Shown: positions 12,754 through 38,846 of the stretch, one piece after another
Layout of the letters: every line of letters starts with the position of its first letter
How positions within the stretch are numbered: the first letter of the stretch is position 1
Origin: an uncultured Rhodospirillales bacterium
GTDB lineage: Bacteria; Pseudomonadota; Alphaproteobacteria; Acetobacterales; Acetobacteraceae
Length of the DNA: 40,428 nt
Assembly: GCA_903843125.1 (NCBI GenBank)
Contig: CAIMOR010000122.1
Span: forward strand, 1 to 40,428
Reading direction: 5' to 3'
Position numbers and translations under genes: made by a program
Notes under the pieces: generated by a model
Database searches by the model: none
What the model saw: only the letters and a program-made list of their open reading frames with translations
What the model was told of the DNA's origin: nothing

Positions 12754-12776
12754 GAACAGGCTGTGCAAGCGGGGGC

Positions 12777-20492: not shown

Positions 20493-21608
20493 CTAGGGGG
20501 CATCAGGGTAGCCTTGTTCGAGCAGTTGCACGGCCGCGGCGGCGCTCAGGCCGGCGAGGCCGACGCGGTCCAGTGTCAGCCCGCTGGCGCGATAGTCCTG
20601 TCCGGTGGCGAGGCAGGCCAGGTGGACCAGGTGGTCGATGCCGGGCGTGGCGACGCCGGCCAGGCGCGCCAGGTTTGCGAGCAGCACCAGGCCGAAGGGG
20701 ACGTCTTCCTCCAGGAAGCGGTGGTTGAGGCTGGTTGGGGCGCGGATCCAGCGGTCCGGCGCCGACTGGTGGAAGGCTTCGTAGGCCAGCCCCGTCTCGC
20801 GCGCCGCGGCCGTGGTGTAGCCGATGCGGTGGAAATGCTCGACGAAGGGCAGCACCTCGACACAGAAGGCGGCGCCGATGGCGCGACGCTCAAGGTCCAG
20901 CGAGTCGATGACCCGGCCAACCGCGGGGCTGATGCCGTCGTAGTAGTGGTGGTAGTCGCCCTGCGTGGCCTCGATGCGGCCGGCATTCATCAGCGTGGCC
21001 GGCGGATGGTGGATGGCGTTGGTGTAGGGGAACACGGTTTCCAGCAGATGCCGATGCGGCGCGATGGCGGGAAACACCGGGGCAAGGCGGGCGGCCAATT
21101 CCGCGGTGCGGTGACCGGGGAAGGCGGCGAAGGGCAGCCGGCGCGCGGCCTGGGTGATGCGCACGGCGGCGGGGCCGGACTTGCGCGCGATGTAGGGCAG
21201 GGTGGCGGTGTCGCCGAACGGGATTACCGCCTTGCCGTGACGGCGCAGCACGTTGGGGATCAGCAGCAACGTATGTCCGGGCGCGGCAAGTAGCATCTGT
21301 TGCGGCACCAGGTGCGGTGCGACGGTTTCCGCCATGCTCGCATGGGCGTGGGTCGGGCCCATCAGGATGACGAGGTCGGCGCCTGCCATGGCTGCCGCGG
21401 CGCTGTTGGTGATGAGCGCGAGCGGGACGAAGTCCTCCGCTTCATCGGCGGCAAGGGTTATGCCGCCGGCCTGGCGGATCGGCTCGATGGTGCCGGGACT
21501 GCGGCCGTAGAGGCGTACCTCGAAGCCGCGCTGGGTCAGGTCCGCGCTGGCGGCGCAACCGCCATGGCCGGCGCCGATGACGGCGATGCTGCGGATGGCT
21601 GCGGTCAC
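20493..21608 (-). CDS. Octopine/nopaline (opine) dehydrogenase family protein 1
   Basis: Opine dehydrogenases join a keto acid to an amino group through an imine and reduce it with NAD(P)H, or run the reverse oxidative cleavage. The 371-residue protein has the N-terminal Rossmann motif G12-A-G-H-G-G17 and a C-terminal helical domain with the N-x-x-x-H-P type motif (TNAIHHPP) giving the probable catalytic H201. The GTG at 21608 is preceded by GGAG at eight bases; a longer upstream frame is not conserved. It leads the transporter operon, preceded by a TGTGATCACA site. It is divergent from a second, related opine dehydrogenase gene, so uptake and C-N bond chemistry are co-regulated. Confidence 0.88.
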   Translation of the reverse strand: MTAAIRSIAVIGAGHGGCAASADLTQRGFEVRLYGRSPGTIEPIRQAGGITLAADEAEDFVPLALITNSAAAAMAGADLVILMGPTHAHASMAETVAPHLVPQQMLLAAPGHTLLLIPNVLRRHGKAVIPFGDTATLPYIARKSGPAAVRITQAARRLPFAAFPGHRTAELAARLAPVFPAIAPHRHLLETVFPYTNAIHHPPATLMNAGRIEATQGDYHHYYDGISPAVGRVIDSLDLERRAIGAAFCVEVLPFVEHFHRIGYTTAAARETGLAYEAFHQSAPDRWIRAPTSLNHRFLEEDVPFGLVLLANLARLAGVATPGIDHLVHLACLATGQDYRASGLTLDRVGLAGLSAAAAVQLLEQGYPDAP

Positions 21609-21653
21609 ACCGGCTCTCCTGCGGCGCACGGGCGGGGGTCGCGCCTGGCCAGA

Positions 21654-21663
21654 TGTGATCACA
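21654..21663. promoter_or_regulatory. GntR-type operator TGTGATCACA, site 3
   Basis: A perfect palindrome 46 bases upstream of the opine dehydrogenase 1 start. On the minus strand a -35-like TTGCAA (21682-21677) and a -10-like TCACAT (21658-21653) with an 18-base spacer overlap the site, again fitting repression of the operon leading into the Tct transporter. Confidence 0.72.
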
Positions 21664-21868
21664 GTGACGCAGCGGATTGCAAGCGGGATGGGCGGCCAGC
21701 CCGGTGGCGCCGCGCTTGGTCTGCCCGTTCGCTGTGCAGGCCGAGGCCGCGCAGGGCGATAAGCGGGCGGCACGCGAGCATGGCCTGGCGGCGGTGGCGT
21801 GGCGGGGCATGACGCGAGCGGATGGACGGTTGACAGCGGGGCTTGGGCGAACGGAAGCTGTTCGTCGG

Positions 21869-21878
21869 TGTGATCACT
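21869..21878. promoter_or_regulatory. GntR-type operator, site 4 (TGTGATCACT)
   Basis: Nine of ten bases match the palindrome. It ends 21 bases before the GTG start of opine dehydrogenase 2. A perfect TTGACA (21830-21835) lies upstream, without a good -10, so the site is probably near or just after the transcription start. Together with site 3 it brackets the shared divergent promoter region. Confidence 0.65.
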
Positions 21879-21899
21879 GCGGGTGAATGGAGGCGCTTG

Positions 21900-23030
21900 G
21901 TGGCTGGTGCTGCGACCATGGGCAACGGGTCGGTCGGATGTGTCGCGGTACTAGGCGCGGGACATGGCGGCTGCGCCGCCGCCGCCGACCTGATGCTGCG
22001 CGGCTTCCGCATTCGGCTGCATGCGCGCAGCGCGGCGCGGCTGGCACCGTTGCGGGCGCGCGGCGGCATCGAGGCGCACGGCGTGCAAACCGGCTTCGTG
22101 ACCCCGGAGGTGATGACGACGGACCTGGCCGAGGCGATCGACGGCGCTGACCTGATCATGCTGGTGGTGCCTTCCGTGGCGCACAGCTTCTACGCTGCCG
22201 GCCTGGCGCCGCTGCTGGATGGCCGCGTGCCGGTAATGCTGAACCCCGGGCACACCGGCGGCGGGCTGCATTTTCTGTCAGACCTGCGGGCGGCGGGCTA
22301 CACGGATGCGCTGCCGCTGTGCGAGACGGTTTCGCTGACCTACATCACCCGCATGGAGGGGCCGGCCAAGGTCGGCATCTACAGCTATGCGAAGCAGCTG
22401 CGCTTTGCCGCGCTGCCGGCAAGCCGGACGGCCGAGCTGTTCGCGCTGGTGCAGCCGCTGTATCCGGGCATCCGCGCTGCGGCGAACGCGCTTGAATCGG
22501 CGCTTGGCAACGTCAACGCGGTGTTTCACCCGCCGGGCATGCTGATGAACGCCGGCTGGATCGAGAGCACCGGCGGCGATTTCCTGTTCTACAACCAGGG
22601 CATCACGCCGGCCGTCGCTCGCGTGACGGCTGCGGTGGATGCGGAGCGGATGGCGGTGGCGGCGGCGCTGGGCGTTCCGGCGATACCCTTCCTGCAGACC
22701 TTCTTCGAGTTTGGCGCAACAACCGCTGAAGCGTATGCGAGTGGCGACATCGCCCGGGCCTGCCGCGAGAGTGCGCCGAACGCGACGATCAAGTCGCCGA
22801 AGTCGCTGGATGACCGCTACATCCACGAGGATGTCGGCACCGGCCTGGTGCCGATGGCCGCGCTGGGCCGCGTGGCCGGCGTGCCGACGCCCACGATGGA
22901 TGCGCTGGTGCACCTGGCCAGCCTGGCGCTCGGCGTCGATTTCAACCAGGCCGGGCTGACGCTGGAAAAGCTGGGTGTCGCCGGCATGACGCCTGCACAG
23001 CTGCTGCGCTTTGTCGAGGAGACTGCCTGA
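21900..23030 (+). CDS. Octopine/nopaline (opine) dehydrogenase family protein 2
   Basis: This 376-residue paralog of the divergent gene carries the Rossmann motif G19-A-G-H-G-G24 and the catalytic-type histidine H210 in VNAVFHPP, followed by MLMNAGWIE as in protein 1 (TLMNAGRIE). I chose GTG 21900 because GGAGG lies six bases upstream; TTG 21897 and ATG 21918 are alternatives. It starts a four-gene operon (opine dehydrogenase, M24, enolase superfamily, luciferase-like) whose stop and start codons overlap, here as TGATG with the M24 gene. With the M24 hydrolase it suggests oxidative or hydrolytic opening of a secondary amine. Confidence 0.88.
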   Translation: MAGAATMGNGSVGCVAVLGAGHGGCAAAADLMLRGFRIRLHARSAARLAPLRARGGIEAHGVQTGFVTPEVMTTDLAEAIDGADLIMLVVPSVAHSFYAAGLAPLLDGRVPVMLNPGHTGGGLHFLSDLRAAGYTDALPLCETVSLTYITRMEGPAKVGIYSYAKQLRFAALPASRTAELFALVQPLYPGIRAAANALESALGNVNAVFHPPGMLMNAGWIESTGGDFLFYNQGITPAVARVTAAVDAERMAVAAALGVPAIPFLQTFFEFGATTAEAYASGDIARACRESAPNATIKSPKSLDDRYIHEDVGTGLVPMAALGRVAGVPTPTMDALVHLASLALGVDFNQAGLTLEKLGVAGMTPAQLLRFVEETA

Positions 23031-26514: not shown

Positions 26515-27054
26515 ATGAACGTCGCCGCCCGACACTCGCTCGCCCCCGACCTGGTCGGCAAGAGCCTTGAGGAAATCTTCGACCGCAGCATCGGTCGCTT
26601 CCGCGACAAGGTGCCGGACTGGGCCGCCTTCGAGGATGCGAAGGTCGAGGGGTTCAAGCGCGCGCAGCACCGCTTCATCGGTGCTGGCGGTTCGGGCAAG
26701 CACGCCGACCCGAACGCGATCCCGGCGCGCGGCTTCACGCTGAGCATCATGTATGTCGAGCCAGGGCAGGGCAACGCCGCGCACACCCATGAGGTGGAGG
26801 AGGTGTTCTTCGTGCTGCAGGGATTGCTGACGGTATTCGTGGAGGACGAGACCGGCCGGCAGTTGAAGACGCGGATCGGGCCGTGGGAGTGCGTGTGCTG
26901 CCCGCCCGGCGTGATCCACGGCTACATCAACGATAGCCTGGAGCCGGTGTATTTCCAGGTGATGCTGGGCCGTGCCAAGCCGGACCTGATGGGCTACGCC
27001 GACCCCAAGTTGTTCGAGAGCCGCGGCGGCCACCTGCGCGAAGGCGATGTGTAG
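26515..27054 (+). CDS. Cupin-domain protein
   Basis: Cupins are small beta barrels, often metal-dependent dioxygenases, isomerases or binding proteins. The 179-residue protein has cupin motif 1 with H90-x-H92 and E96 (AHTHEVEEVFFVLQG) and motif 2 with H135 (CPPGVIHGYIN), so the full 3-His/1-Glu metal set is present. The N-terminal 70 residues are not recognised. It is first in an operon with a decarboxylase-like amidohydrolase and a three-subunit molybdenum hydroxylase, four bases between genes. It could be a ring-cleaving dioxygenase of gentisate or hydroxyanthranilate type, but it is shorter than those enzymes, so this is open. Confidence 0.85.
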   Translation: MNVAARHSLAPDLVGKSLEEIFDRSIGRFRDKVPDWAAFEDAKVEGFKRAQHRFIGAGGSGKHADPNAIPARGFTLSIMYVEPGQGNAAHTHEVEEVFFVLQGLLTVFVEDETGRQLKTRIGPWECVCCPPGVIHGYINDSLEPVYFQVMLGRAKPDLMGYADPKLFESRGGHLREGDV

Positions 27055-27057
27055 CGC

Positions 27058-28008
27058 ATGACGCGCGTCGTCGCCCTCGAGGAGCACTACTGCGACGCCG
27101 AACTGGCCGAGCATTTCAGCGGCGGCGACAGGCTTGCGCCACCGCTGCGGGCACGGCTGCTCGATATCGACCTGCGGCTGCGCGACATGGATGCCGCGGG
27201 CATCGACGTGCAGGTGCTGTCGCACACGGCGCCGGCGCTGCAGAAACTGCCGGCTGAGGTCGCGGTGCCGCTGGCGCGGGGCGTCAACGACCGACTGCAG
27301 CGGATCGTCGAGGCGCATCCGACGCGCTTCGCCGGCTTCGCCACGCTGCCGACCGACGACCCGGACGCAGCGGCGGCGGAGCTTGAGCGTTGTGTCACCC
27401 AGCACGGCTTCAAGGGCGCCATGGTGCACGGGTTGACCGGCGGCGCCTTCCTGGATGAACGGCGGTTCTGGCCCATCCTGGCCGCGGCCGAGGCGCTGGA
27501 CGTGCCGATATACCTGCATCCGTCGGTGCCGAGCCCGGTGGTGACCGAGGCCTATTACGAGCCCTATGCCGCCGAGTTCCCGATGCTGCTGCGGGCCGGC
27601 TGGGGCTTTACCGCGGAGACGGCGACGCAGGCGATCCGCCTGGTGCTCAGCGGTGCACTGGAGGCTTACCCGCGGCTCAAGCTGATCCTTGGTCACCTGG
27701 GCGAGACGCTGCCCTTCCTGCTCTGGCGGGTCGACCAGGCGCTCTCGCGCGAGGGCAATCGGCCGCTGCGTTTCCGTGAGGCGTTCTCCCGGCATTTCTG
27801 GGTCACGACGAGCGGTTTCTTCTCCAACCCGGCGCTGCTGTGCACGATGATGGAAATGGGCATCGACCGGGTGATGTTCTCGGTCGACTGGCCATTCGTC
27901 GACAACAGGCAGGGCGTGGATTGGCTGAACGCGGCGCCGGTCTGCGCCGAGGATAGGGCCAAGGTGTTTGGCGGCACCGCGACGGCGTTGCTGCGGCTTC
28001 AGGAGTGA
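27058..28008 (+). CDS. Amidohydrolase-2 (ACMSD / gamma-resorcylate decarboxylase-like) protein
   Basis: This clan includes 2-amino-3-carboxymuconate semialdehyde decarboxylase, gamma-resorcylate and 2,3-dihydroxybenzoate decarboxylases, and some lactone hydrolases. The 316-residue protein shows the metal set E8-x-H10 (LEEHY), H154 (YLHPS) and D277 (SVDWPF), plus the second-shell pair H213 and E216 (GHLGE). The E-x-H start and spacing fit gamma-resorcylate decarboxylase closely. It lies three bases after the cupin gene. It probably removes a carboxylate from an aromatic or muconate-like intermediate of the pathway, before or after the hydroxylase encoded by the next three genes. Confidence 0.87.
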   Translation: MTRVVALEEHYCDAELAEHFSGGDRLAPPLRARLLDIDLRLRDMDAAGIDVQVLSHTAPALQKLPAEVAVPLARGVNDRLQRIVEAHPTRFAGFATLPTDDPDAAAAELERCVTQHGFKGAMVHGLTGGAFLDERRFWPILAAAEALDVPIYLHPSVPSPVVTEAYYEPYAAEFPMLLRAGWGFTAETATQAIRLVLSGALEAYPRLKLILGHLGETLPFLLWRVDQALSREGNRPLRFREAFSRHFWVTTSGFFSNPALLCTMMEMGIDRVMFSVDWPFVDNRQGVDWLNAAPVCAEDRAKVFGGTATALLRLQE

Positions 28009-28012
28009 TACG

Positions 28013-28873
28013 GTGAAACTGCCTGCTTTCGATTACGCGACGCCGACGAGCATCGGCGAGGCGGTGGCGTTGCTGGCTGCCGGCGACGGCAGCGCGCGGC
28101 CCCTTTCCGGCGGTCAAACGCTGATGCCGCTGCTGGCGTTCCGGCTTACGGCGCCGAGCCTGCTGGTCGACCTTCGCGGCATCCCTGGGCTGGATGCGGT
28201 TGAGATCGGCGAGGCTGGCACGCGGTTGGGCGCGCGGGTGCGGTGGTGCGACATCGAGGCCCACGCCGGGCTGGCGGCGGCACAACCGCTGCTGGTGGCG
28301 ATGATCGGCCACGTCGCGCACTACCAGATCCGCAAGCGCGGTACGCTGGGCGGCAGCATGGCGCACGCCGACCCCGCCGCCGAAATGCCCGGCGTGGCTG
28401 TCGCCTGCGACGGCGTGCTGCACCTGGTCGGCGCGGGCGGGGCGCGAGACGTGGCGGCGCGCGATTTCTTCCTGGGCCCATTGACCACGGCGTTGGCGGC
28501 TGACGAGTTGATCGTCGGCATTACCTTGCCGGCCTGGCCGCACGGGCGGCGCTGGGGCTTTCAGGAGTTCGCGCGTCGGCGCGGCGACTTCGCGCTGGCC
28601 GGCGTGGCCGTGCACTACGACGAGGTCGGCGGTCGGGCGGTGGGCGCGCATGTGGCTGTCATCGGGGCGTGCAGCGCGCCGCATCGGGTGGCGGCGGCCG
28701 AGGCCCTGCTGGAGGGCAGCGCGGTGACTTCGGCGCTTGCTGCCGAGGTTGGTCGGGCGGTGGCGGCGAGCGTGAGCCCGCCCGAGGACATCCATGCGAC
28801 GGCGGCGTACCGACGGTCCCTGGCCGGGACCTTGGCGGAACGCGCATTGGCGGCAGCGGGAGGCCTGGCGTGA
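28013..28873 (+). CDS. Molybdenum hydroxylase FAD-binding subunit (CoxM/XDH medium, set 2)
   Basis: This 286-residue FAD subunit has the motifs LSGGQTLM (31-38) and TLGGSMAHAD (111-120), typical of CoxM-like proteins; the following residues PAAEMP are also family-standard. The GTG at 28013 is preceded by AGGAG overlapping the upstream stop region; no better start exists. It ends in a GTGA overlap with the small subunit gene. The order FAD-FeS-Mo differs from set 1, where FeS and Mo are fused, and it is not a close copy of the set 1 FAD subunit. Confidence 0.93.
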   Translation: MKLPAFDYATPTSIGEAVALLAAGDGSARPLSGGQTLMPLLAFRLTAPSLLVDLRGIPGLDAVEIGEAGTRLGARVRWCDIEAHAGLAAAQPLLVAMIGHVAHYQIRKRGTLGGSMAHADPAAEMPGVAVACDGVLHLVGAGGARDVAARDFFLGPLTTALAADELIVGITLPAWPHGRRWGFQEFARRRGDFALAGVAVHYDEVGGRAVGAHVAVIGACSAPHRVAAAEALLEGSAVTSALAAEVGRAVAASVSPPEDIHATAAYRRSLAGTLAERALAAAGGLA

Positions 28874-29346
28874 GGGACGTTGCGTTCGAGGTGAACGGCA
28901 AGGCATGCCGCGTGGCGGTGGAACCGAGGACGACGCTGGCGGACTGCCTGCGGCATGACCTGGGGCTGACCGGCACCCATGTGGCCTGCGCGCATGGCGT
29001 ATGCGGCGCTTGTACGGTGCTGGTCGACGGTGAGGCCGTGCGGTCCTGCCTGACGCTGGCGGTGCAGATGGAAGGCGCGGCGGTGACGACGATCGAGGGC
29101 CTGTCGAGCGAGGACGGGCTTTCTCCGCTGCAGGCGGCGTTCCGCAAGCATGGCGCAGTGCAGTGCGGCTTCTGCACGCCGGGGATCATCACCACGATGC
29201 ATGCGCTGCTGACCACGGAACCCCATGCCGACGAGGCGCGGGTGCGGGAGGTGCTTTCCGGCAATATCTGCCGTTGCACCGGCTACATGGCGATGGTCGC
29301 GGCAGTGCTGGAAGCGCGCGCTGCCTATCAGGGAGCGCCGGCATGA
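28870..29346 (+). CDS. Molybdenum hydroxylase [2Fe-2S] small subunit (set 2)
   Basis: This 158-residue electron-transfer subunit has plant-type cluster ligands C40, C45, C48 and C60, and the second cluster C99, C102 (QCGFCTPG), C134 and C136 (CRCTGY). The GTG start overlaps the FAD subunit stop by four bases, and its own stop overlaps the ATG of the large subunit (ATGA). A longer upstream frame is not conserved. It links the Mo centre to FAD in the heterotrimer. Confidence 0.95.
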   Translation: MRDVAFEVNGKACRVAVEPRTTLADCLRHDLGLTGTHVACAHGVCGACTVLVDGEAVRSCLTLAVQMEGAAVTTIEGLSSEDGLSPLQAAFRKHGAVQCGFCTPGIITTMHALLTTEPHADEARVREVLSGNICRCTGYMAMVAAVLEARAAYQGAPA

Positions 29347-31628
29347 ACGCGCCACTCCGCGGGCCGGGCAACAACTTCGTCGGCCAATCGGTAGAGCGGC
29401 TGGAGGATATGCGGCTGCTGCGCGGCCAGGGCCTGTTCACCGACGACGTCTCGCGCCCCGGCCTGGTTCACGCGGCGATCCTGCGCAGCACGGTGGCGCA
29501 TGGCTGGTTGCGCGGCGTGGACAGCGCGGCGGCGCTGGCGCTGCCGGGAGTGGTCGCGGTGATCACCGCCGCGACCATGGGCGCCAAGGTACCGGCGATT
29601 CCGATGCGGCTGGCGCCGCTGGACGAGTTGGAGCCGTACTGGCAGCCGGTGATCGCAGCCGACAAGGTGCGCTATGTCGGCGAACCCATTGCGGTGGTGC
29701 TGGCCGAGAGCGCGGCGATTGCCGAGGACGCGCTGGAGTTGCTGGTCGCGGAGATCGAGGCCTTGCCGCCGGTGGTGGATACCGCGACGGCGCTGGCTGA
29801 CGGGACGCTGCTGTTCGAGGCGCAGGGCACCAACCTGGCCGTGCTGTACACCGCACAGAAAGGCGAGGCGCAGGCCGAGTTCCCCGGTGCCTATGTGCGG
29901 CGTGAAAAGATGGACACGCAGCGCCATACCGCGACGACGATGGAGACGCGTGGCCTGCTGGCCGAATGGGACGCGACGACGGAGGTGCTGCGGATCCACG
30001 GCGCCTCCAAGGTGCCCTTCGCCAGCCGCGGGATGCTGGCCAAGCAGATGGGTCTGCCGGAGACCAGCATCGAGATGATCGAGGTGGATGTCGGCGGCGG
30101 CTTCGGCATGCGCGGCGAGTTCTATCCCGAGGATTTCCTGGTGCCCTTCGCCGCGAAGCATTGCGGCCGGCCGGTGAAGTGGATCGAGGATCGACGCGAG
30201 CATCTGCTGGCCTGCAACCACGCCCGCGAATTCGACTGCGACCTGGAACTGGTGTGCAGCCGGGAGGGCGATATCCTGGCGCTGCGCGGCACGGTGAATG
30301 GCAACATGGGTGCCTACATGCGGGCCAATGTCGCGGTAGCGCCGCGCAATGTCGGGCAGTTCCTGTCCGGGCCCTACGCGGTGCCGAACGTGCACGTGGA
30401 GGTGCGCGCGCTGCTGACCAACAAGACACCAACCGGCACCTATCGGGGGCCAGGGCGGTTCGAGGCGGATTTCTTCCGTGAGCGGTTGCTGGATTTGGCG
30501 GCCGACGACCTCGGGATCGACCGGGTGGCCTTCCGCCGCCGCAACCTGGTGAAGATGGCGGAGATGCCCTATCCGCTGGCCACCGTGACGCCGCCGAAGA
30601 AGGAGGAAAAGCTCGACAGCGGCGACTACGTCATGACGATGGACCTCGCCCTGGCCGAACTGGACTGGGACGCAAAGCTGCCGCTGCAGGGCAAGCTGAT
30701 CGACGGGCGCTACCATGGGCTCGGCGTGGCCTGCTTCATCGAAGGCGGCGCCGCCGGGCCGCGCGAGCGGGCCAGGGTCGAACTGGTGGAGGACGGGACC
30801 GTCGCGGTCTATGTCGGCTCCACCCTGGTCGGGCAGGGGTTGGAGACGGTGATGACGCAGATCGCCGCCGACGCGATGGAATGCAGCATGGATACCATCC
30901 GCTTCTTCCATGGCTCGACCACCTACGTCTCGGAAGGTTTTGGCTCGTTCCATTCGCGTTCCACCGTGATGGGCGGCTCGGCGATCCTGCTGGCGATCGA
31001 GGAGTTGCGGCAGCGGATGCGCGAGGCCGCGGCCGCCCGGCTGGGCTGCAAGGCGGAGGCGGTTCGGCTGGAGGAGGGCCGCGCCGTGGCCCCGGGCGGG
31101 GGTGCCCTGAGTTGGGCCGAGCTGGCCACCGCAGGACTGAGCGGCGACGGCGTGTTCCACAACCACACGCATACCTACGCCTATGGCGCCCATGCCTGCC
31201 ACGTGGCGGTGGACCCCCGCAGCGGCCATGTCGAGGTGGTCGACTACGTCGCGGTCGAGGATGTCGGCCGGATGATCAATCCGCTGGCGCTGCAGGGCCA
31301 GATCGTCGGCGCCGTGGTGCAGGGCCTGGGCGGCGTATTCCTGGAGCACCTGGTCTACGATGCCGAGGGCCAGTTGCTGACCGGCTCCTTCGCCGACTAC
31401 CTGCTGCCGACCGCGACGGACTACCGCAGCATCCGGGCGGTGGCGATGGGCGTGCATACCGGCGCTGTCGGCCCGTTGGGTGCCAAGGGCGCCGGCGAGG
31501 GCGGGATCATCCCGGTGGGCGGCTGCATCGCCAACGCGGTGGCGGCGGCATTCTCCGGCAAGGTGCAACCGATGTCCCTGCCGCTGTCGCCCTCCCGGCT
31601 ATGGGCGATGATCGAGGCCGCGGGCTGA
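29343..31628 (+). CDS. Molybdenum hydroxylase large Mo-cofactor subunit (CoxL/XDH-like, set 2)
   Basis: This 761-residue subunit binds the molybdopterin cytosine dinucleotide cofactor and the substrate. Landmarks are GQSVERLEDMRLLRGQG (14-30), VGGGFGMRGEF (about 254), the active-site loop GTYRGPGRFEADF (about residues 363-375) and the catalytic glutamate in KGAGEGGIIP (about 718). The loop lacks the AYxCSFR signature of true form I CO dehydrogenase, so it is a hydroxylase of the wider family. It closes the cupin-decarboxylase-hydroxylase operon. The 134-base gap to the ABC transporter operon carries no palindrome; read-through is possible. Confidence 0.93.
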   Translation: MNAPLRGPGNNFVGQSVERLEDMRLLRGQGLFTDDVSRPGLVHAAILRSTVAHGWLRGVDSAAALALPGVVAVITAATMGAKVPAIPMRLAPLDELEPYWQPVIAADKVRYVGEPIAVVLAESAAIAEDALELLVAEIEALPPVVDTATALADGTLLFEAQGTNLAVLYTAQKGEAQAEFPGAYVRREKMDTQRHTATTMETRGLLAEWDATTEVLRIHGASKVPFASRGMLAKQMGLPETSIEMIEVDVGGGFGMRGEFYPEDFLVPFAAKHCGRPVKWIEDRREHLLACNHAREFDCDLELVCSREGDILALRGTVNGNMGAYMRANVAVAPRNVGQFLSGPYAVPNVHVEVRALLTNKTPTGTYRGPGRFEADFFRERLLDLAADDLGIDRVAFRRRNLVKMAEMPYPLATVTPPKKEEKLDSGDYVMTMDLALAELDWDAKLPLQGKLIDGRYHGLGVACFIEGGAAGPRERARVELVEDGTVAVYVGSTLVGQGLETVMTQIAADAMECSMDTIRFFHGSTTYVSEGFGSFHSRSTVMGGSAILLAIEELRQRMREAAAARLGCKAEAVRLEEGRAVAPGGGALSWAELATAGLSGDGVFHNHTHTYAYGAHACHVAVDPRSGHVEVVDYVAVEDVGRMINPLALQGQIVGAVVQGLGGVFLEHLVYDAEGQLLTGSFADYLLPTATDYRSIRAVAMGVHTGAVGPLGAKGAGEGGIIPVGGCIANAVAAAFSGKVQPMSLPLSPSRLWAMIEAAG

Positions 31629-31762: not shown

Positions 31763-32776
31763 ATGCATAGCTTCCAGACCAGGCGTTTGCTGCTGGGCGC
31801 GGCCGCCGCCTTGGCCGCCCCGCGACTGGGGCGTGCCGCCGGGCTAACTCCGGTAACGATGCGCCTGGACTGGATTTTCCAGGGGCCGAACAGCGGCTTC
31901 GTCGTCGCCCGGGACAAGGGCTTCTACGCCGCTGCCGGGTTGGATGTGGAGATTGGGCCTGGCCGCGGTTCCAGCAGCACTGCGCAACTGGTGGCGAGCA
32001 ATGCGACCCAGTTCGGCTTCGCCGACGGCTTCGTGGTTGGCAACAGCGTCAGCCGCGGCATGGATGTCCGCACGGTCGGCGGCGTGTACCGGCGCAATCC
32101 CTGCGCGGTGATGGTGCTGGAGGACAGCGACATCCGACAGCCGAAGGACCTGGAGGGGAAGTCGATCGGCATTGCGGCCGGCTCGGCGCAGTTCCAGCAG
32201 TTCCCAGCCTGCGCCCGCGGCTTCGGGCTGGACCTGGCCAAGGTTCGTGTGGTGGCGATCGACCCCGTAGCCGGCATTCCCGCGTTGCTCGAGGGCAAGG
32301 TGCAGGCGCTGGGCGGCTTCGCCCAGGGCTATGTGCCGGGGATAGAACTGCGCAGCGACAAGCGCGTGCGGCTGTTCTGGTATGCCGATGCCGGGGTGAA
32401 CGCGGTCAGCAACGGCATCATCGTGCACAACGACCTGATCAAGCGGGAGCCGGCGCTGGTGCGGGCCTTCGTGGCGGCCAGCCTGCAGGGCTTCCTGTAC
32501 GGGCGGCAGCACCCGGACGAAGTGCCGGTCATCGTGAAGAAATATTCGGAGACGGTGAACCCGGCGATCGTGCGGCGGGAGCTGGAGCTTTCCTGGAACA
32601 CCTGGGTCACGCCGAACACCGCGCACAAGCCGTTGGGCTGGTCCTCGGCGGCGGATTGGGCGGCGACGGTGGAAACGCTGAAGCAGTATGGCGGCGTGAC
32701 CGCACCGCTGGAGGCTGGACAGCTGTTCAGCAACGACTTCGTGCCCGAGGGCGCGGAATTCGTGCCGCCGCAATGA
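31763..32776 (+). CDS. ABC transporter substrate-binding protein (NMT1/THI5, NitT/TauT type)
   Basis: The protein captures a small nitrogen or sulfur compound in the periplasm. The 337 residues begin with a signal peptide carrying twin arginines (TRRLLLGAAAALAAP) and ending near residue 26 (GRAAG). The mature part has family features: MRLDWIFQGPNSGF, KGFYAAAGLDVEI and DLEGKSIGIAAGSAQFQQF. The relatives bind nitrate, taurine, aliphatic sulfonates, pyrimidine precursors or riboflavin, so the ligand cannot be assigned. GGGGAT precedes the ATG. It starts a five-gene operon whose later genes overlap or nearly overlap. Confidence 0.92.
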   Translation: MHSFQTRRLLLGAAAALAAPRLGRAAGLTPVTMRLDWIFQGPNSGFVVARDKGFYAAAGLDVEIGPGRGSSSTAQLVASNATQFGFADGFVVGNSVSRGMDVRTVGGVYRRNPCAVMVLEDSDIRQPKDLEGKSIGIAAGSAQFQQFPACARGFGLDLAKVRVVAIDPVAGIPALLEGKVQALGGFAQGYVPGIELRSDKRVRLFWYADAGVNAVSNGIIVHNDLIKREPALVRAFVAASLQGFLYGRQHPDEVPVIVKKYSETVNPAIVRRELELSWNTWVTPNTAHKPLGWSSAADWAATVETLKQYGGVTAPLEAGQLFSNDFVPEGAEFVPPQ

Positions 32777-33414
32777 CCGACGGGCTGCTGGTGACGCTGG
32801 CCGAGAAGGCGGCACCGGCGCGCGCGGCGCTGCTGGTGATAGATGTGCAGAACGACTTCCTGGCCGATGGCGGCTTTTTCCATCGCGCCGGCTACGACGT
32901 CAGTACGGCGCGGGCCGCGGTGCCGCCGTTGCAGCGCCTGGTGGGAGCGGCACGGCATGCAGGGGTGGCGGTGGTGTTCGTCCAGGCCATCTACGACGAC
33001 GAGCATTGCTCCCCGGTGATGCGGGAGCGCAATCAGCGGCGCGGCCTGGTGGCGCCGCGCTGCCTGAGCGGCAGCTGGGGCGCCGATTTCTACCAACTGC
33101 AGCCGGCGCCGGGCGACGCGGTGGTGGTGAAGCATCGCTACAGCGCGATGCTGGGCAGCGGACTGCCGGCGCTGCTGCGCGCGCGGGGCATTGAGAGCCT
33201 GCTGCTGGCGGGCGTGGCGACGGATACCTGCGTGGAATCCACCGGTCGCGATGCCTACTTCATGGACTGGTACGTCACGCTGGTGGCGGATTGCTGCGGA
33301 GCGGCTTCGGCCGCGGACCACGCCGGGGCGCTGGCACGGTTCGACCGCGACTATGGCACGGTGTGTTCCTCAGCCGAGTTGATGGCGGCGTGGGGCCAGC
33401 CGGCGCATGGGTGA
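32773..33414 (+). CDS. Isochorismatase-family cysteine hydrolase, RutB-like
   Basis: The family contains isochorismatase, N-carbamoylsarcosine amidase, nicotinamidase and RutB, the ureidoacrylate/peroxyureidoacrylate amidohydrolase of pyrimidine breakdown. In this 213-residue protein the triad is D24 (VIDVQNDF), K120 (VVVKHRYS) and C153 (ATDTCVES). Several stretches resemble RutB: ADGGFFHRAGYDVSTAR (31-47), GSWGADFY (100-107), KHRYSAM and CVESTGRDA. The ATG overlaps the upstream stop as ATGA, and the gene overlaps the ATPase gene by eight bases. An amidase placed within an ABC importer operon probably acts on the imported compound or its product, releasing ammonia or carbamate. Confidence 0.88.
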   Translation: MTDGLLVTLAEKAAPARAALLVIDVQNDFLADGGFFHRAGYDVSTARAAVPPLQRLVGAARHAGVAVVFVQAIYDDEHCSPVMRERNQRRGLVAPRCLSGSWGADFYQLQPAPGDAVVVKHRYSAMLGSGLPALLRARGIESLLLAGVATDTCVESTGRDAYFMDWYVTLVADCCGAASAADHAGALARFDRDYGTVCSSAELMAAWGQPAHG

Positions 33415-34192
33415 CGCCATGCTGGAACTGCGCGAGCTTTCCAAGCTTTACGCGACGGGCAACGGCGTGGTGCGCGCGCTGGACCGGATCTCGTTGGTGC
33501 AGAGCCCGGGGGAGTTCGTCTCCATCGTGGGGCCGAGCGGCTGCGGCAAGAGCACGCTGCTGATGCTGGCGGCCGGGTTGGTCGGCGCCAGTGCCGGCCA
33601 GGTGCTGGTCCAGGGACGCGCGGTGACGGGACCGCGGACCGATGTTGGGATCGTGTTCCAGAGCCCCGTGCTGCTGGAATGGCGGACCGCGCTGGGCAAC
33701 GTGATGCTGCAGGCCGAGGCACGCGGTCTGCCGAGACGGGCGGCGGAAGCACGGGCGCGGGAGCTGCTGGCGCAGGTCGGCCTGGCCGGGTTCGAGCAGA
33801 AATATCCGCATGAACTATCCGGCGGGATGCGTCAGCGGGTCTCCATCTGTCGCGCGCTGATCCATGCGCCGCAACACCTGCTGATGGACGAGCCGTTCGG
33901 CGCGCTGGACAGCCTGACGCGCGACCAGCTGGTGCTGGACATCCAGCACATGTGGCAGGCGCGGGAGCGGGCGATGACGGTGACGTTCATCACCCACAGC
34001 GTGCAGGAGGCGGTGTTCCTCTCGGACCGCGTGGTGGTGATGACGCCGCGCCCGGGGCGGATCGACCAGGTGATGGAGATAGACCTGCCGCGGCCGCGCA
34101 CGCTGGCGATGCGCGAGCAGCCGCCGTTCAACGCCTATTGCCGGCAGGTCCTGGACCTGTTCCTGCAGCGCGGCGTCCTCAGGGAACATTGA
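33407..34192 (+). CDS. ABC transporter ATP-binding protein (NitT/TauT type)
   Basis: This cytoplasmic ATPase powers the importer. In the 261 residues the Walker A motif GPSGCGKST is at 42-50, the Q-loop glutamine is Q85, the signature LSGGM at 137-141 and Walker B LLMDEPF at 158-164; THS near 195 is the switch histidine. It is of SsuB/TauB/NrtD type. It overlaps the hydrolase gene by eight bases; a second ATG at 33419 is possible, neither has a strong ribosome site, in line with translational coupling. Confidence 0.95.
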   Translation: MGDAMLELRELSKLYATGNGVVRALDRISLVQSPGEFVSIVGPSGCGKSTLLMLAAGLVGASAGQVLVQGRAVTGPRTDVGIVFQSPVLLEWRTALGNVMLQAEARGLPRRAAEARARELLAQVGLAGFEQKYPHELSGGMRQRVSICRALIHAPQHLLMDEPFGALDSLTRDQLVLDIQHMWQARERAMTVTFITHSVQEAVFLSDRVVVMTPRPGRIDQVMEIDLPRPRTLAMREQPPFNAYCRQVLDLFLQRGVLREH

Positions 34193-34194
34193 GC

Positions 34195-35037
34195 ATGGCC
34201 GAGGATGCCCTGCTGCGGCTGGAGGCAGTTCTGCTGACGGCGCGACGGCGGCTGGAATGGCGCCGGCGGCTGGCCACGGTGCTGGCACCAAGCGTCGCCG
34301 TGCTGGTGCTGCTGCTGTTCTGGGAATACGGCGCCAGGCTGTTCGCCATTCCGCCCTACCTGTTGCCAGGGCCTCAGGTGGTGCTGGCTTCCATGCGCGA
34401 GAACGCCGCGGCGCTGTGGACGCAGGGGCTGGTGACGACGTGGGAGATAGTGCTGGGCTTCGCGCTCAGCGTTGCGGTCGGTCTGCCCTTGGCGTTGGCG
34501 ATCTTCCTGTGGCAGCCCTTTGCCCGGGCGGTGTACCCGCTGATGATCGCGTCCCAGGCCATGCCGAAGGTGGCGGTGGCGCCGCTGTTCCTGGTGTGGT
34601 TCGGCTTCGGCCTGCTGCCGAAGGTGTTGATCGGCTTCCTGATCTGCTTCTTCCCGATCGTCATCAACACGGTCATGGGGCTGCACGGGATCGAGCGCGA
34701 GAAGATCTACCTGGCGCAGTCGATGGGGCTGGGTAGCGCCGCCACGTTCTTCAAGATTCGCCTGCCCAATGCGCTGCCGGCGATCTTCGGTGGCTTGAAG
34801 ATAGCGATCACGCTGGCGGTGGTGGGTGCCGTGGTCGGAGAGTTCGTCGGCGGTGATGCCGGGCTGGGCTACCTGCTGATCACGGCCAATGGCAACATGG
34901 ACACGGCGCTGCTGTTCGCCGGGATCGTCTGCCTCACCGTCATCGGGGTGGTGCTGTTCCTGCTGGTGGAACTGGCCGAGCGGCTGCTGTTGCCGCGCCA
35001 TGCGGTGGGTGGCGGCGCTGCGCGGGACGCCGCCTGA
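34195..35037 (+). CDS. ABC transporter permease (NitT/TauT type)
   Basis: This 280-residue inner-membrane protein has about six hydrophobic segments (first at about 28-45) and the BPD_transp_1 domain. The coupling-loop EAA-like motif is seen around AQSMGLGSAATFFKIRLP. It begins two bases after the ATPase stop and its own stop overlaps the next start as TGATG. As a single permease gene it probably forms a homodimer, as in SsuC or TauC systems. Confidence 0.94.
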   Translation: MAEDALLRLEAVLLTARRRLEWRRRLATVLAPSVAVLVLLLFWEYGARLFAIPPYLLPGPQVVLASMRENAAALWTQGLVTTWEIVLGFALSVAVGLPLALAIFLWQPFARAVYPLMIASQAMPKVAVAPLFLVWFGFGLLPKVLIGFLICFFPIVINTVMGLHGIEREKIYLAQSMGLGSAATFFKIRLPNALPAIFGGLKIAITLAVVGAVVGEFVGGDAGLGYLLITANGNMDTALLFAGIVCLTVIGVVLFLLVELAERLLLPRHAVGGGAARDAA

Positions 35038-35996
35038 TGTCCCTCTACCCGGCGCTGGTGCGGCCGCTGCTGTTCCGCCTTTCGCCGGACCGAGCGCATG
35101 CCCTGGCACAGGCGGCGCTGCGCTGGCCGGCCCTGTGGCGCCTGCTGGCCGCCGGCGCGGCGCCGGGCCAGCCGGTGCGCTTCGCCGGCGTGGAACTGGC
35201 CAACCCGGTCGGTCTCGCGGCAGGCTTCGACAAGAACGCCGAGCTGGTGGCGGCGCTGTCGCAGCTGGGCTTTGGCTTCGTCACCGTCGGTTCGCTGATG
35301 GCGGAGCCGCGCTTCGGCAACCCCTTCCCGCGCCTGGTGCGCTACCCGGAGACGCTGTCGATGGCGGACTCGATGGGGCTGCCGAGCAAGGGGTTGCCCT
35401 ATGCGCTGGCGCGGCTGCAGGCGCTGCGGCCCTCGTGCGTGCCGGTCTTTGCCAATGTCGCGGGCTTCAGCGCGGAGGCGATCGTCCGCAGCGTGCGTGC
35501 GGTGGCGCCGCTGGTAGCCGCAGTGGAGATCAATCTGCTCTGCCCGAATATCACCAAGGGTGAGCGCTTCGACGAGATGGCGTTCCTGCGGGAGGTGCTG
35601 GACCAACTGGCCGGGCATGCCGGACCGCTGGTGGTGCGGCTGCCGAACGACACGGTGGCCGATGCCGATCGGCGCGCCGAATTCCTGGAGATCTGCATCG
35701 GCGGTGGCGTGAAGGGCGTGAAGATCGGCGGCGGGCGGCCGGTGGCGGAGCCTCGGCTGGGCACCGGGCAGGGCACGCTGCATGGCCAGGCGATCTTCGA
35801 TCGCGCCTTGGAGCATGTCGAGGCGGCATCACGAGTTGTTCGCGGCCGGCTCGACATCAAGGGCAATGGCGGCGTTGGCAGCGCCGCGCAGGTCCGGGCG
35901 ATGCAACGGGCGGGGGCCTGCTGCGTCGACCTGTACAGCGCCTTCGTTTACCAGGGCTGGGGCGTGGCGCGGGCGATCAACCGCGACCTGGCCTGA
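35037..35996 (+). CDS. Dihydroorotate dehydrogenase-like flavoprotein with altered active site
   Basis: The 319-residue TIM-barrel FMN protein resembles class 2 dihydroorotate dehydrogenase: NPVGLAAGFDKNAE (56-69) and KGNGGVGSAAQ (275-285). Key places differ. The catalytic base position is C169 in NLLCPNI, as in class 1 enzymes, not the class 2 serine. The orotate-binding motif GFNN reads GLPSKG (114-119). The NTT region reads KIGGGRP (229-235). The FMN-contact lysine of KIAPD is R201 (RLPND). N166 and N171 are kept. I infer that it acts on another cyclic amide or heterocycle. It is co-translated with the ABC permease and is the last gene of the importer operon, a place more fitting for catabolism than for pyrimidine synthesis. 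A divergent but genuine pyrD remains possible. Confidence 0.8.
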   Translation: MSLYPALVRPLLFRLSPDRAHALAQAALRWPALWRLLAAGAAPGQPVRFAGVELANPVGLAAGFDKNAELVAALSQLGFGFVTVGSLMAEPRFGNPFPRLVRYPETLSMADSMGLPSKGLPYALARLQALRPSCVPVFANVAGFSAEAIVRSVRAVAPLVAAVEINLLCPNITKGERFDEMAFLREVLDQLAGHAGPLVVRLPNDTVADADRRAEFLEICIGGGVKGVKIGGGRPVAEPRLGTGQGTLHGQAIFDRALEHVEAASRVVRGRLDIKGNGGVGSAAQVRAMQRAGACCVDLYSAFVYQGWGVARAINRDLA

Positions 35997-36371
35997 TCAG
36001 CCCTTGGCGGCGGCCTGCAGGATGTGCTCCGGCGTGGAGGAGACCACCTGCACGTAGCGCGGCTTGAAGGCGGCTGGGCCACCTTCGATGTACTTGATGA
36101 ACTCCGGCTTCATGTCCTTCAGGATCGGCAGGATGCGGGCATGTTCCTGGATGCTGGCCCATTCGGCGATCAGGAAGAATCGCTGCGGGTCGGTCTCGTC
36201 GCGGCAGAGCACGCCATCCTTCACCTGGGCGGCGGATTTATGCATCGGGTTGTCGGCGCCGTAGTCGAACGCCTCGAACAGGCGGACGAACTCTTCCTCG
36301 TGGCCGGCCTGCACGCGAAAGTCGTAGATGTGGAGGTAGTTGCCGGCGGTCGCCAGGGGTTCCTGTGCCAT
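35997..36371 (-). CDS. Small ABM-like (antibiotic biosynthesis monooxygenase fold) protein
   Basis: This 124-residue soluble protein has a ferredoxin-like beta-alpha-beta pattern seen in ABM/dabb proteins: an opening strand HIYDFRVQAGHEEEFVRLF (14-32), a central strand RFFLIAEWASIQEH and a closing strand. Such proteins can be cofactor-free oxygenases or have no known reaction. No catalytic residues can be assigned. Its stop is adjacent to that of the convergent dehydrogenase-like gene. It is divergent from the Rieske oxygenase gene, with 122 bases between them that hold the promoters. Confidence 0.65.
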   Translation of the reverse strand: MAQEPLATAGNYLHIYDFRVQAGHEEEFVRLFEAFDYGADNPMHKSAAQVKDGVLCRDETDPQRFFLIAEWASIQEHARILPILKDMKPEFIKYIEGGPAAFKPRYVQVVSSTPEHILQAAAKG

Positions 36372-36493: not shown

Positions 36494-37753
36494 ATGGACA
36501 TCTCCCCGGAACATCCCCGCAATGCCGGCCGGCTGCTGTGGCCCGGCGACGACCTGACGCGCATTCCGGACTGGGTCTACACCGACCAGGAAGTCTACGA
36601 ACGGGAGGTGGAGCGGATCTTCCACGGCCGCACCTGGAACTATGTGGCGCTGGAAGCCGAACTGCCGAACGCCGGCGATTTCATCCGCAGCAATGTCGGG
36701 CCCACGCCGGTGGTGGTAAGCCGCGCCAAGGATGGCGCAGTGCATGTGTTCGAGAACCGCTGCACGCATCGCGCCGCCGAGTTCTGCCGCGAGCTGACCG
36801 GCAACGTAAAGGAGTTCGTCTGTCCCTATCACCAGTGGACATATGACCTGAAGGGCAGGCTGCAGGGCGTGCCGTTCCGGCGCGGCGTGGCCGGTGCCGG
36901 CGGCATGCCGAAGGAGTTTACCACCGCCGATCACAGTCCGCGGCAGTTGGCGGTAACGACGCATCGCGGCGTGGTCTTCGCCAGCTACGCGCCGGATATG
37001 GAGCCGCTGGCCGACTACCTGGGGCCGGAGGTAATGCGCGAGTTCGAGGCGACCTTCGACGGTCGCGCGCTGGTCATCCTGGGGCACTACCGCCACAGCC
37101 TGCCAGGCAACTGGAAGCTGTACCACGAGAACCTGAAGGACCCCTACCACGCCACGCTGCTGCATACCTTTCTGGTGACCTTCGGCCTGCTGGTAGCCGG
37201 CAACAAATCCCTGATGCTGGCCGACGCCAGCGGGCGCCACGGCGTGATGTGCAGCGCCAAATCGGACGTCAGCAAGGTTACAGCCGAAGCCAAGGGCGAG
37301 ATGCGCGCCTTCAAGGAAGGCATGAAGCTGGCCGATGCGCGGATGATGGCGTTCATCGACGAGTTCGATAGTCCCTGGTCGGTGACGATGGCGACGATCT
37401 GGCCGAACCTGATCGTGCAGCGGGAGATGAACACGCTCGGCATTCGCCAGCTGGTGCCAACCGGGCCGAACGAGTTCATCATGAAGTGGACCATGTTCGG
37501 CTTCGAGGGTGACAGCGAGGAGATGACGCGGCATCGGCTGCGCCAGGGCAACCTGATGGGACCAGCCGGCTTCCTTGGCCTTGAGGACAACGAGGCGATC
37601 AAGTTCGTGCAGGACGGCATGCTGCGCGTACCCGGCGGCGAGCACCTGGTGGCGCTGGACCCGGCAACACCGTTCGGCACGTCGGAGACGCTGATCTCGG
37701 AAAGCGCGATCCGCGGCATGTATCGTCATTGGCGCGAGGTGATGGGGCTGTGA
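36494..37753 (+). CDS. Rieske non-heme iron ring-hydroxylating oxygenase, alpha subunit
   Basis: The alpha subunit binds a Rieske [2Fe-2S] cluster and a mononuclear iron and adds oxygen to an aromatic ring. In this 419-residue protein the Rieske ligands are C90-x-H92 and C110-x2-H113 (CPYHQW). The iron-site stretch is NWKLYHENLKDPYHATLLH, with bridging D216 and iron ligands H219 and H224. The size and a small beta subunit partner suggest the anthranilate, salicylate or benzoate-type group. No ferredoxin or reductase gene is in the window, so electron partners must be encoded elsewhere. The strong AGGAGG supports high expression. Its stop overlaps the beta subunit start as GTGA. Confidence 0.93.
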   Translation: MDISPEHPRNAGRLLWPGDDLTRIPDWVYTDQEVYEREVERIFHGRTWNYVALEAELPNAGDFIRSNVGPTPVVVSRAKDGAVHVFENRCTHRAAEFCRELTGNVKEFVCPYHQWTYDLKGRLQGVPFRRGVAGAGGMPKEFTTADHSPRQLAVTTHRGVVFASYAPDMEPLADYLGPEVMREFEATFDGRALVILGHYRHSLPGNWKLYHENLKDPYHATLLHTFLVTFGLLVAGNKSLMLADASGRHGVMCSAKSDVSKVTAEAKGEMRAFKEGMKLADARMMAFIDEFDSPWSVTMATIWPNLIVQREMNTLGIRQLVPTGPNEFIMKWTMFGFEGDSEEMTRHRLRQGNLMGPAGFLGLEDNEAIKFVQDGMLRVPGGEHLVALDPATPFGTSETLISESAIRGMYRHWREVMGL

Positions 37754-38241
37754 CCGACCCTCGCCTGGAAGCACTGCTGTTGCGCGCGGAGATCGAGGCC
37801 TTCAATGCCGATTACTGCGCCAGGCTGGACCGGCAGGACCTGAACGCCTGGGTGCAATGCTTCACCGAGGACGCCTTCTACGTGGTCATCAGCCGCGAGA
37901 ATTTCGAGCGCGGGCAGCCGGTGGGCCTGATCTATTGCGAGGGGCGGCCGATGATCCAGGACCGGGCCTTCGCCTTGCTGAATACCGCGATGTTCGGCCC
38001 GCGTTACCTGCGCCACATGGTCAGCAACCTGAGCGTCGCAGCGCAGCCGGATGGCAGCGTGCAGGCGCGCGCGAATTTCGTCGTGTTCGAGGTGCTGACC
38101 GACCGTCCCGATGCGCGCCTGCTGCAGGTCGGTGAATACCGCGACGTCTTCGTGCGCGACGGCGAGGCGCTTAAGCTGCGCGAACGCCGCTGCGTCTACG
38201 ACAATCTGCTGATACCGACGGCGCTCTGCATCCCCGTCTAG
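37750..38241 (+). CDS. Ring-hydroxylating oxygenase beta subunit
   Basis: The beta subunit is a small NTF2/SnoaL-like fold that stabilises the alpha3beta3 oxygenase and has no cofactor. The 163-residue length and stretches such as EIEAFNADYCARLD (16-29), RYLRHMVSN (about 91-99) and ERRCVYDN (about 146-153) are typical. The GTG start overlaps the alpha stop. Its stop codon shares bases with the stop of the convergent MarR gene (CTAG, 38238-38241), leaving no room for a terminator. Confidence 0.92.
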   Translation: MTDPRLEALLLRAEIEAFNADYCARLDRQDLNAWVQCFTEDAFYVVISRENFERGQPVGLIYCEGRPMIQDRAFALLNTAMFGPRYLRHMVSNLSVAAQPDGSVQARANFVVFEVLTDRPDARLLQVGEYRDVFVRDGEALKLRERRCVYDNLLIPTALCIPV

Positions 38242-38795: not shown

Positions 38796-38846
38796 CGGTG
38801 GTCAACATAGGGACGCTGCGCCTGCGGGCAAAGATGCGTTGACGGC

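Follow-up and report, generated by a model that had tools for sequence, protein, structure and literature searches.

The operon and its conservation

The window (the whole stretch of 40,428 nucleotides that was analysed) contains an open reading frame without internal stops that encodes P0001, a protein of 319 residues belonging to the dihydroorotate dehydrogenase (DHOD) family (Pfam DHO_dh, 145.5 bits). The stop-to-stop frame looks coding, with a GC content of 0.78, 0.54 and 0.81 at the successive codon positions. An earlier note, made from the sequence of this DNA alone, had placed the gene here and had singled out C169, GLPSKG, R201 (in RLPND, for the usual KIAPD) and IGGGRP, all of which were recovered upon translation. 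Its statement that the gene overlaps that of an ABC permease is likewise correct: bases 35035-35039 read TGATG, so that the permease stop and the ATG of the DHOD-like gene have one base in common. The genes are arranged in the order cupin, Amidohydro_2, CoxM, CoxS, CoxL, binding protein, isochorismatase, ATPase, permease and DHOD-like gene (Table 1), and the binding-protein and isochorismatase genes overlap too, as do the isochorismatase and ATPase genes.

Table 1. Genes of the operon in the window that ends with the DHOD-like gene
Position	Strand	Feature	Remarks
26515..27051	+	Cupin	71-73% identical in 5 orthologue genomes
27058..28008	+	Amidohydro_2 family protein	
28013..28873	+	Molybdenum hydroxylase FAD subunit (CoxM type)	Putative GTG start
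28867..29346	+	Molybdenum hydroxylase 2Fe-2S subunit (CoxS type)	Approximate start
29343..31628	+	Molybdenum hydroxylase large subunit (CoxL type)	In all 4 orthologue loci reaching there; 59% identical homologue scanned
31763..32776	+	NMT1/THI5-type substrate-binding protein	In 5/5 orthologue loci
32773..33414	+	Isochorismatase-family hydrolase	Closest models are RutB and biuret hydrolase, cut-offs not reached
33407..34192	+	ABC ATPase	In 5/5 orthologue loci
34195..35037	+	ABC permease	Adjoins DHOD-like orthologue in 5/5 loci
35037..35996	+	P0001, putative DHOD-like flavoenzyme with an altered substrate pocket on a class 2 fold	Translation, profile, alignment, model

Five orthologues of P0001 (53-58% identical) were found in a second order of the class, that of genome G979, where 5 of 18 genomes carry the gene. 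All five loci carry a second NMT1-like protein, the cupin, the NMT1-type binding protein, the ATPase, the permease and the DHOD-like gene, the last of these following the permease at a distance of 2-16 bp. The CoxM-CoxS-CoxL molybdenum hydroxylase lies upstream in all four loci that reach that far; in these same four it is preceded by a CocE/NonD-type hydrolase and a further molybdenum large subunit (in two of them cut by the edge of the fetched stretch), and a TetR regulator lies downstream. An aldehyde dehydrogenase with an alpha/beta hydrolase is present in two of the five loci, as is an arylmalonate decarboxylase/EutA-like gene in two of five. At E values up to 1e-6, the second NMT1-like protein, the CocE-type hydrolase, the TetR regulator and the aldehyde dehydrogenase were not found in the window, and the isochorismatase and Amidohydro_2 protein of the window had no match in the five orthologue loci. 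The constant core consists of the importer, the molybdenum hydroxylase, the cupin and the DHOD-like gene, and the hydrolases vary by host.

The earlier note had read the isochorismatase-family hydrolase as RutB-like and had used it as a clue to the substrate. It reaches 121 bits in the RutB model TIGR03614, below the cut-off of 378 bits, and because it is absent from the five orthologue loci (E values up to 1e-6), it says little about the substrate. The pyrimidine reading that was based on RutB was therefore dropped, the Amidohydro_2 protein being without a match in these loci as well.

In the order of G979, the cupin and the DHOD-like gene are found in precisely the same genomes (5 of 18), and in a sample of the class the cupin occurs in 10 of 362 genomes. 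As a marker of the pathway it was nevertheless rejected, since eight new cupin loci (~19 kb each) gave no DHOD-like match at E values up to 1e-8. One of these (L201) has distant CoxMSL matches, aldehyde dehydrogenases and TetR. In another (L205) the cupin is accompanied by an aldehyde dehydrogenase, an alpha/beta hydrolase and a CoxL end, a third (L203) adds to the cupin nothing but distant ATPase matches, and the remaining five match by the cupin alone. The cupin of the operon is 63-72% identical in eight genomes (L192-L199), and some of the surroundings (L200-L207, with gene lists for L200-L205) look catabolic; genes around it include ones resembling tricarballylate dehydrogenase (L202) and the alpha subunit of sulfopyruvate decarboxylase (L204), as well as an aspartate dehydrogenase (L205).

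With few carrier genomes, differing hydrolases and a cupin that is found without the DHOD-like gene, the content of the operon names no single substrate. Nine plasmid matches, obtained with P0001, the binding protein, the hydrolase or the second NMT1-like protein, had no copy of the operon in their annotated neighbourhoods.

Family membership and distribution of P0001

Among the NCBIfam models, those of class 2 PyrD rank first for P0001, every one of them below its cut-off. In TIGR01036 (cut-off 200 bits) P0001 reaches 129 bits and the orthologues L082, L180 and L181 reach 157, 151 and 163 bits, so that all four proteins tested miss it. The class 1 models follow behind the class 2 models at 62-84 bits, and no PreA model is among the 14 models listed for P0001 at E values up to 0.01. 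An AlphaFold2 model, built from P0001 and 41 homologues and containing no ligand, has a mean pLDDT of 93.7 and a pTM of 0.92. Its best solved matches in Foldseek are class 2 DHODs (the 50 rows listed are all DHODs), and VIA-align 2 superimposes it on E. coli PyrD with a Z of 42.2 and an rmsd of 2.0 Å over 309 residues. This alignment spans residues 2-318 of the model and thus includes the N-terminal quinone domain. The predicted fold, N-terminal quinone domain included, is that of class 2 and not that of class 1 or PreA, which agrees with the class 2 backbone claimed for P0001 in the earlier note.

In a tree of 53 rows, selected from those at hand and rooted on three class 1B rows, P0001 and its five orthologues form one clade (100/100) on a stem of 1.05 changes per column. 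It lies outside a separate clade of 39 canonical class 2 rows (100/100), and five Chloroflexota rows form a third clade (98/91); the branching order of these three at the root is left unsettled by the tree.

The DHOD-like gene looks rare and patchy, and yet two orders of one class have it. A class sample of 385 genomes yielded one orthologue, in G979 (57% identical); apart from it, only G738 gave a match with an E value of 1e-42 or lower, and that protein is canonical by motif. A six-row profile found only the window's own genome (G000) and G979 in a second class sample of 337. No orthologue was found in the other five genomes of the genus or the rest of 60 relatives (best other match 7.2e-40, 37%), no further one among 299 genomes of the order (best other match 1.0e-41), and no further one among 398 genomes of the phylum at a cut-off of 1e-46. 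These samples overlap and every one includes the window's own genome; the best 5-7 first-look candidates per genome were scored in the order, phylum and both class samples, and 9 in the cupin sample. A scan of the contigs of named genomes with the C-terminal 220 residues of P0001 gave no relative. In the scan of named genomes with alignment A1 the best 80 listed loci are canonical-looking or Chloroflexota class 2 proteins, and the GLAAGFDK pattern is common among these genomes. Among plasmids 145 records match, all at less than 60% identity. Viral contigs gave five loci with 28-37% identity.

Could the gene be a non-catalytic or decaying duplicate that is carried along with the importer genes? 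The long stem of the clade can also mean fast evolution of a relaxed duplicate, 44 of the 97 positions that are at least 93% conserved among 29 class 2 rows (plus-strand loci) are changed in P0001, and the gene is rare in the sampled genomes. Against this, dN/dS is 0.10 and 0.18 in two close orthologue pairs, which indicates purifying selection (in the remaining pairs dS is close to 1 or higher and dN/dS lies at 0.14-0.38, P0001 against its orthologues being at the higher end, 0.28-0.38), the changed residues are identical in six proteins, and the frame has stayed open behind the same permease in two orders. We therefore regard decay as highly improbable.

DHODs are commonly regarded as housekeeping enzymes, and the earlier note had proposed looking for a second, canonical pyrD besides the gene at 35037-35996. 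PF01180 matches the window's own genome in four places, namely C218 (269 bits), C462 (232 bits), the window gene (146 bits) and a short, weak one (27 bits). The C218 gene (L001) encodes a canonical class 2 PyrD with GFNN, SSPN, KIAPD and NTT, which reaches 370 bits in TIGR01036 (cut-off 200), is 40% identical to P0001 and clusters in the tree with those of Acetobacteraceae and relatives, which points to Alphaproteobacteria as the probable class. The C462 protein is of class 1B type and passes the class 1-type model PRK07259 (340 against a cut-off of 269); a gene of FAD/2Fe-2S type, read by eye, lies directly upstream. With C218 and C462 present elsewhere, the window gene is an additional member of the DHOD family, and not the sole pyrD. 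A canonical PyrD is also present in the orthologue genome G979.

The substrate pocket

Pocket positions were compared in human/rat DHODH numbering, anchored by fixing K100, with two sets of rows: 58 proteins from sampled genomes and plasmid loci, and 82 rows comprising the best 80 loci among the named-genome matches listed plus L001 and L083 (L001 being common to both sets). The scan patterns of the latter set fix residues 59-66 or 88-95, which means that conservation at those residues is selected. Differences of P0001 from the human enzyme include the following: N145 is D111, K255 is R201, N284 is G232, T285 is G233, S305 is H249 and S214 is L168. The positions of N145, K255, N284, S305 and S214 are each invariant in the 58 rows and in the 82 (best 80 listed plus two), and none of these rows has the residue of P0001. 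The exchanges of Asn145 for Asp, Lys255 for Arg, Asn284 and Thr285 for Gly, and Ser305 for His are common to P0001 and all five orthologues.

Of the six residues that we take to be the orotate contacts (human K100, N145, N212, N217, N284 and T285), P0001 keeps three, as K66, N166 and N171, and has lost the other three, for which D111, G232 and G233 stand; N166 is Ser in the five orthologues. Human K255, N284 and T285 are presumably contacts of the substrate or FMN. Position 231 (human T283) is Gly or Ala in the six proteins and R234 is Gln in two of them. Invariant in all six are K66, T83, R102, D111, S112, P116, K118, C169, N171, R201, P203 and N204, as well as K229, G232, G233, T247, H249, K275, N277, D298, Y300, S301 and W308. 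K229 and K275 are thus conserved throughout the clade, and by alignment K118, R201 and H249 add conserved positive charge in or near the site. H21 and R102, also invariant in six, align with human H56 and R136, which we assume to line the quinone tunnel. GG278-279 are kept in the clade together with Y300 and S301, presumably as the site of the FMN phosphate. According to PMC12534982, N145, N217 and S305 of DHODH matter for dihydroorotate or FMN.

Not all of the changes noticed at first are distinctive. Cys occupies the position of the catalytic base in 1 of 58 and 19 of 82 rows (the 82 being the best 80 listed loci plus two), and in these two sets 3 and 8 rows, respectively, have Pro for the first Asn of GFNN. 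As both are seen in other class 2-like rows, neither is proof of a new function when taken alone, and Cys169 and the change of GFNN to GFP or GLP were dropped as such. The class 1-type Cys, to which the earlier note had attached weight, is common in class 2-like rows; of its claim that the usual orotate contacts have been replaced, GLPSKG and IGGGRP are there as described, but the Pro of the former occurs elsewhere too. The three rows with Pro among the 58 (L038, L039 and L054, from genomes G075, G164 and G125 of genus g66) are class 2 PyrDs with GFPGEG for GFNNxG. G075 and G164 have no other PF01180 match over the full profile, the further ones being weaker and partial.

Judged from its sequence, P0001 is a class 2-type DHOD homologue with what appears to be a rebuilt pocket. 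It shares with class 2 PyrD (TIGR01036/PRK05286) the whole fold and the N-terminal domain, as well as Lys66, Arg102, His21, GG278-279 and Tyr300, and differs from it in scoring below the cut-off, in lying outside the canonical clade, in the replaced equivalents of N145, K255, N284, T285 and S305, in its Cys base and in its importer operon. The Chloroflexota proteins (SAR202/Dehalococcoidia, L090-L094), which branch deeply near the root of class 2 and have altered ANT motifs, resemble P0001 in having GFP for GFN, Glu164 and KLPP (similar to RLPN). Unlike P0001, they keep the equivalents of N145, K255 and N284, the three of the five that were tested pass TIGR01036 at 213-214 bits, and no importer operon was recognised around them by eye.

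It may be argued that P0001 is a diverged yet working dihydroorotate dehydrogenase, serving as a spare pyrD or acting on imported dihydroorotate. The full class 2 fold with its N-terminal domain would allow this, as would the retained equivalents of K100, N212 and N217. Other class 2-like proteins, too, have Cys as the base or GFP in place of GFN, and class II DHODs in which the base is Cys are active (PMC8520639). However, the equivalents of N145, K255, N284 and T285 are replaced in all six proteins, and at the first three of these not one of the 82 rows (best 80 listed plus two) differs. Moreover, P0001 falls below the curated PyrD cut-off, G000 and G979 each have a canonical PyrD, and inspection by eye showed no gene of pyrimidine synthesis near the DHOD-like gene. 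On balance, a working dihydroorotate dehydrogenase seems rather unlikely.

The positions that contact FMN raise a separate matter. With K255 changed to R, S305 to H and N212 to Ser in the five orthologues, binding of FMN is not certain, and these changes, together with Gly or Ala for T283, could mean that P0001 works reductively or with a changed cofactor, i.e. not as a quinone-linked dehydrogenase. As GG278-279, Y300, S301 and the N-terminal domain are all kept, this is considered very unlikely.

Candidate function and known relatives

It seems probable that this operon-bound side branch of class 2 DHOD is a membrane-associated, quinone-linked FMN dehydrogenase for a pathway intermediate, and that it has ceased to take part in the synthesis of pyrimidines. 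In the class 2 enzymes, dihydroorotate loses a proton to a base and electrons pass via the flavin to quinone (PMC8520639). By analogy, FMN would sit at the mouth of the barrel of P0001, Cys169 would act as the base that takes a proton from the carbon next to a carbonyl, the neighbouring carbon of the substrate would deliver hydride to FMN, and quinone would reoxidise FMN via the N-terminal helical domain. Asp111, Gly232, Gly233, Arg201, His249 and Lys118 may remodel the pocket to suit a different substrate from dihydroorotate. Because side chains that hold dihydroorotate are lost (Asn145 to Asp, Asn284 and Thr285 to Gly) and positive charge is added, this substrate would be a different one and perhaps larger or anionic. 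An anionic, partly reduced N-heterocycle or cyclic amide might be envisaged.

The intermediate may derive from a compound that is imported by the adjacent ABC importer and that is also acted on by the adjacent molybdenum hydroxylase. Going by the habits of these families, the two might hint at a substrate that is formed when a small N-heterocycle or a related compound is taken up and hydroxylated. The earlier note had proposed a new flavin enzyme acting on an imported cyclic amide or heterocycle; the presence of an additional, non-canonical DHOD-family protein stands, its pocket and operon link recurring in five orthologues, while the arguments from the Cys and from RutB fall away, and a cyclic amide or heterocycle may still be suggested as the substrate class. 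More tentatively, and with less confidence than in the dehydrogenase role itself, the class 2 branch that has left pyrimidine synthesis could act as a quinone-linked dehydrogenase on a partly reduced N-heterocycle or cyclic amide that the cell imports. It would then work alongside one molybdenum hydroxylase, or two, in a catabolic pathway that is not yet described, and would correspond in class 2 to what the dihydrouracil oxidase and DHase X1 branches are on the class 1 side.

The first of these branches is known from fungi, where, according to PMC10395836, DHODH-like proteins are really dihydrouracil oxidases. Like P0001 as interpreted here, the fungal enzyme is a DHODH-family protein that is not a DHODH and it has a catalytic Cys; unlike P0001, which has LCPNI on a class 2 backbone, it is class 1A-like with SCPNV (same source). 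P0001 could accordingly be imagined as a class 2-derived dihydropyrimidine (dihydrouracil-type) oxidase or dehydrogenase that degrades pyrimidines together with the molybdenum hydroxylase and the RutB-like hydrolase of the window, the fungal precedent and the hydrolase both speaking for it. That the fungal oxidases are class 1A-like and keep SCPNV speaks against it, as do the lack of the hydrolase in the five orthologue loci (E values up to 1e-6) and the conserved Lys, Arg and His that the alignment places close to the pocket and that suggest a charged substrate. A dihydropyrimidine enzyme is thus unlikely, and a quinone-linked dehydrogenase for another intermediate remains the preferred reading. 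PreA/PydA dihydropyrimidine dehydrogenase shares the superfamily and the ring dehydrogenation chemistry with P0001 as read here, and differs in being class 1-like with a partner subunit.

DHase X1 (PMC4016543, section 5) is likewise an uncharacterised DHOD-family dehydrogenase that is clustered with a three-subunit xanthine dehydrogenase-type enzyme and hydrolases. It belongs, however, to the class 1B/PreA side of the tree in that paper, and its neighbours are a hydantoinase and a carbamoyltransferase rather than an NMT1-type importer. The same section treats the class 2 subtree only as DHODases. A literature search that lay mostly outside subscription papers brought up no paper in which a class 2 DHOD-like gene neighbours both a molybdenum hydroxylase and an NMT1-type importer.

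If the preferred reading is true, the quinone-linked class 2 form of DHOD has also been recruited for catabolism. D111, R201, GG232-233 and TLHG would then be marker residues for spotting wrong annotations, and the clade of P0001 would be a natural experiment on the residues that fix dihydroorotate specificity. Its substrate, once found, would give a function to the importer, the molybdenum hydroxylase and several hydrolases together.

Some other genes of the window may be mentioned. A dipicolinate synthase subunit A-like gene lies at 12756-13667 (+) (DpaA_N 69.6 bits; DpsA 190 against a cut-off of 261), with enolase-family and M24-type genes (read by eye) nearby. Two divergent opine/octopine dehydrogenase-like genes lie side by side at 20496-23027; the one on the minus strand matches Octopine_DH with 133.9 bits and the other was read by eye. 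A small ABM-like protein (35997-36371, minus strand; 21.2 bits against a cut-off of 23.1) ends back to back with the DHOD-like gene and had no match in the orthologue loci at E values up to 1e-6. Further downstream, at 36494-38241 (+), a ring-hydroxylating dioxygenase pair is nearest to anthranilate dioxygenase AndAc/AndAd, at 394 of 750 and 133 of 230 bits (i.e. below the cut-offs), and by this pair lies a second CoxL, at 38843, which is cut by the end of the contig.
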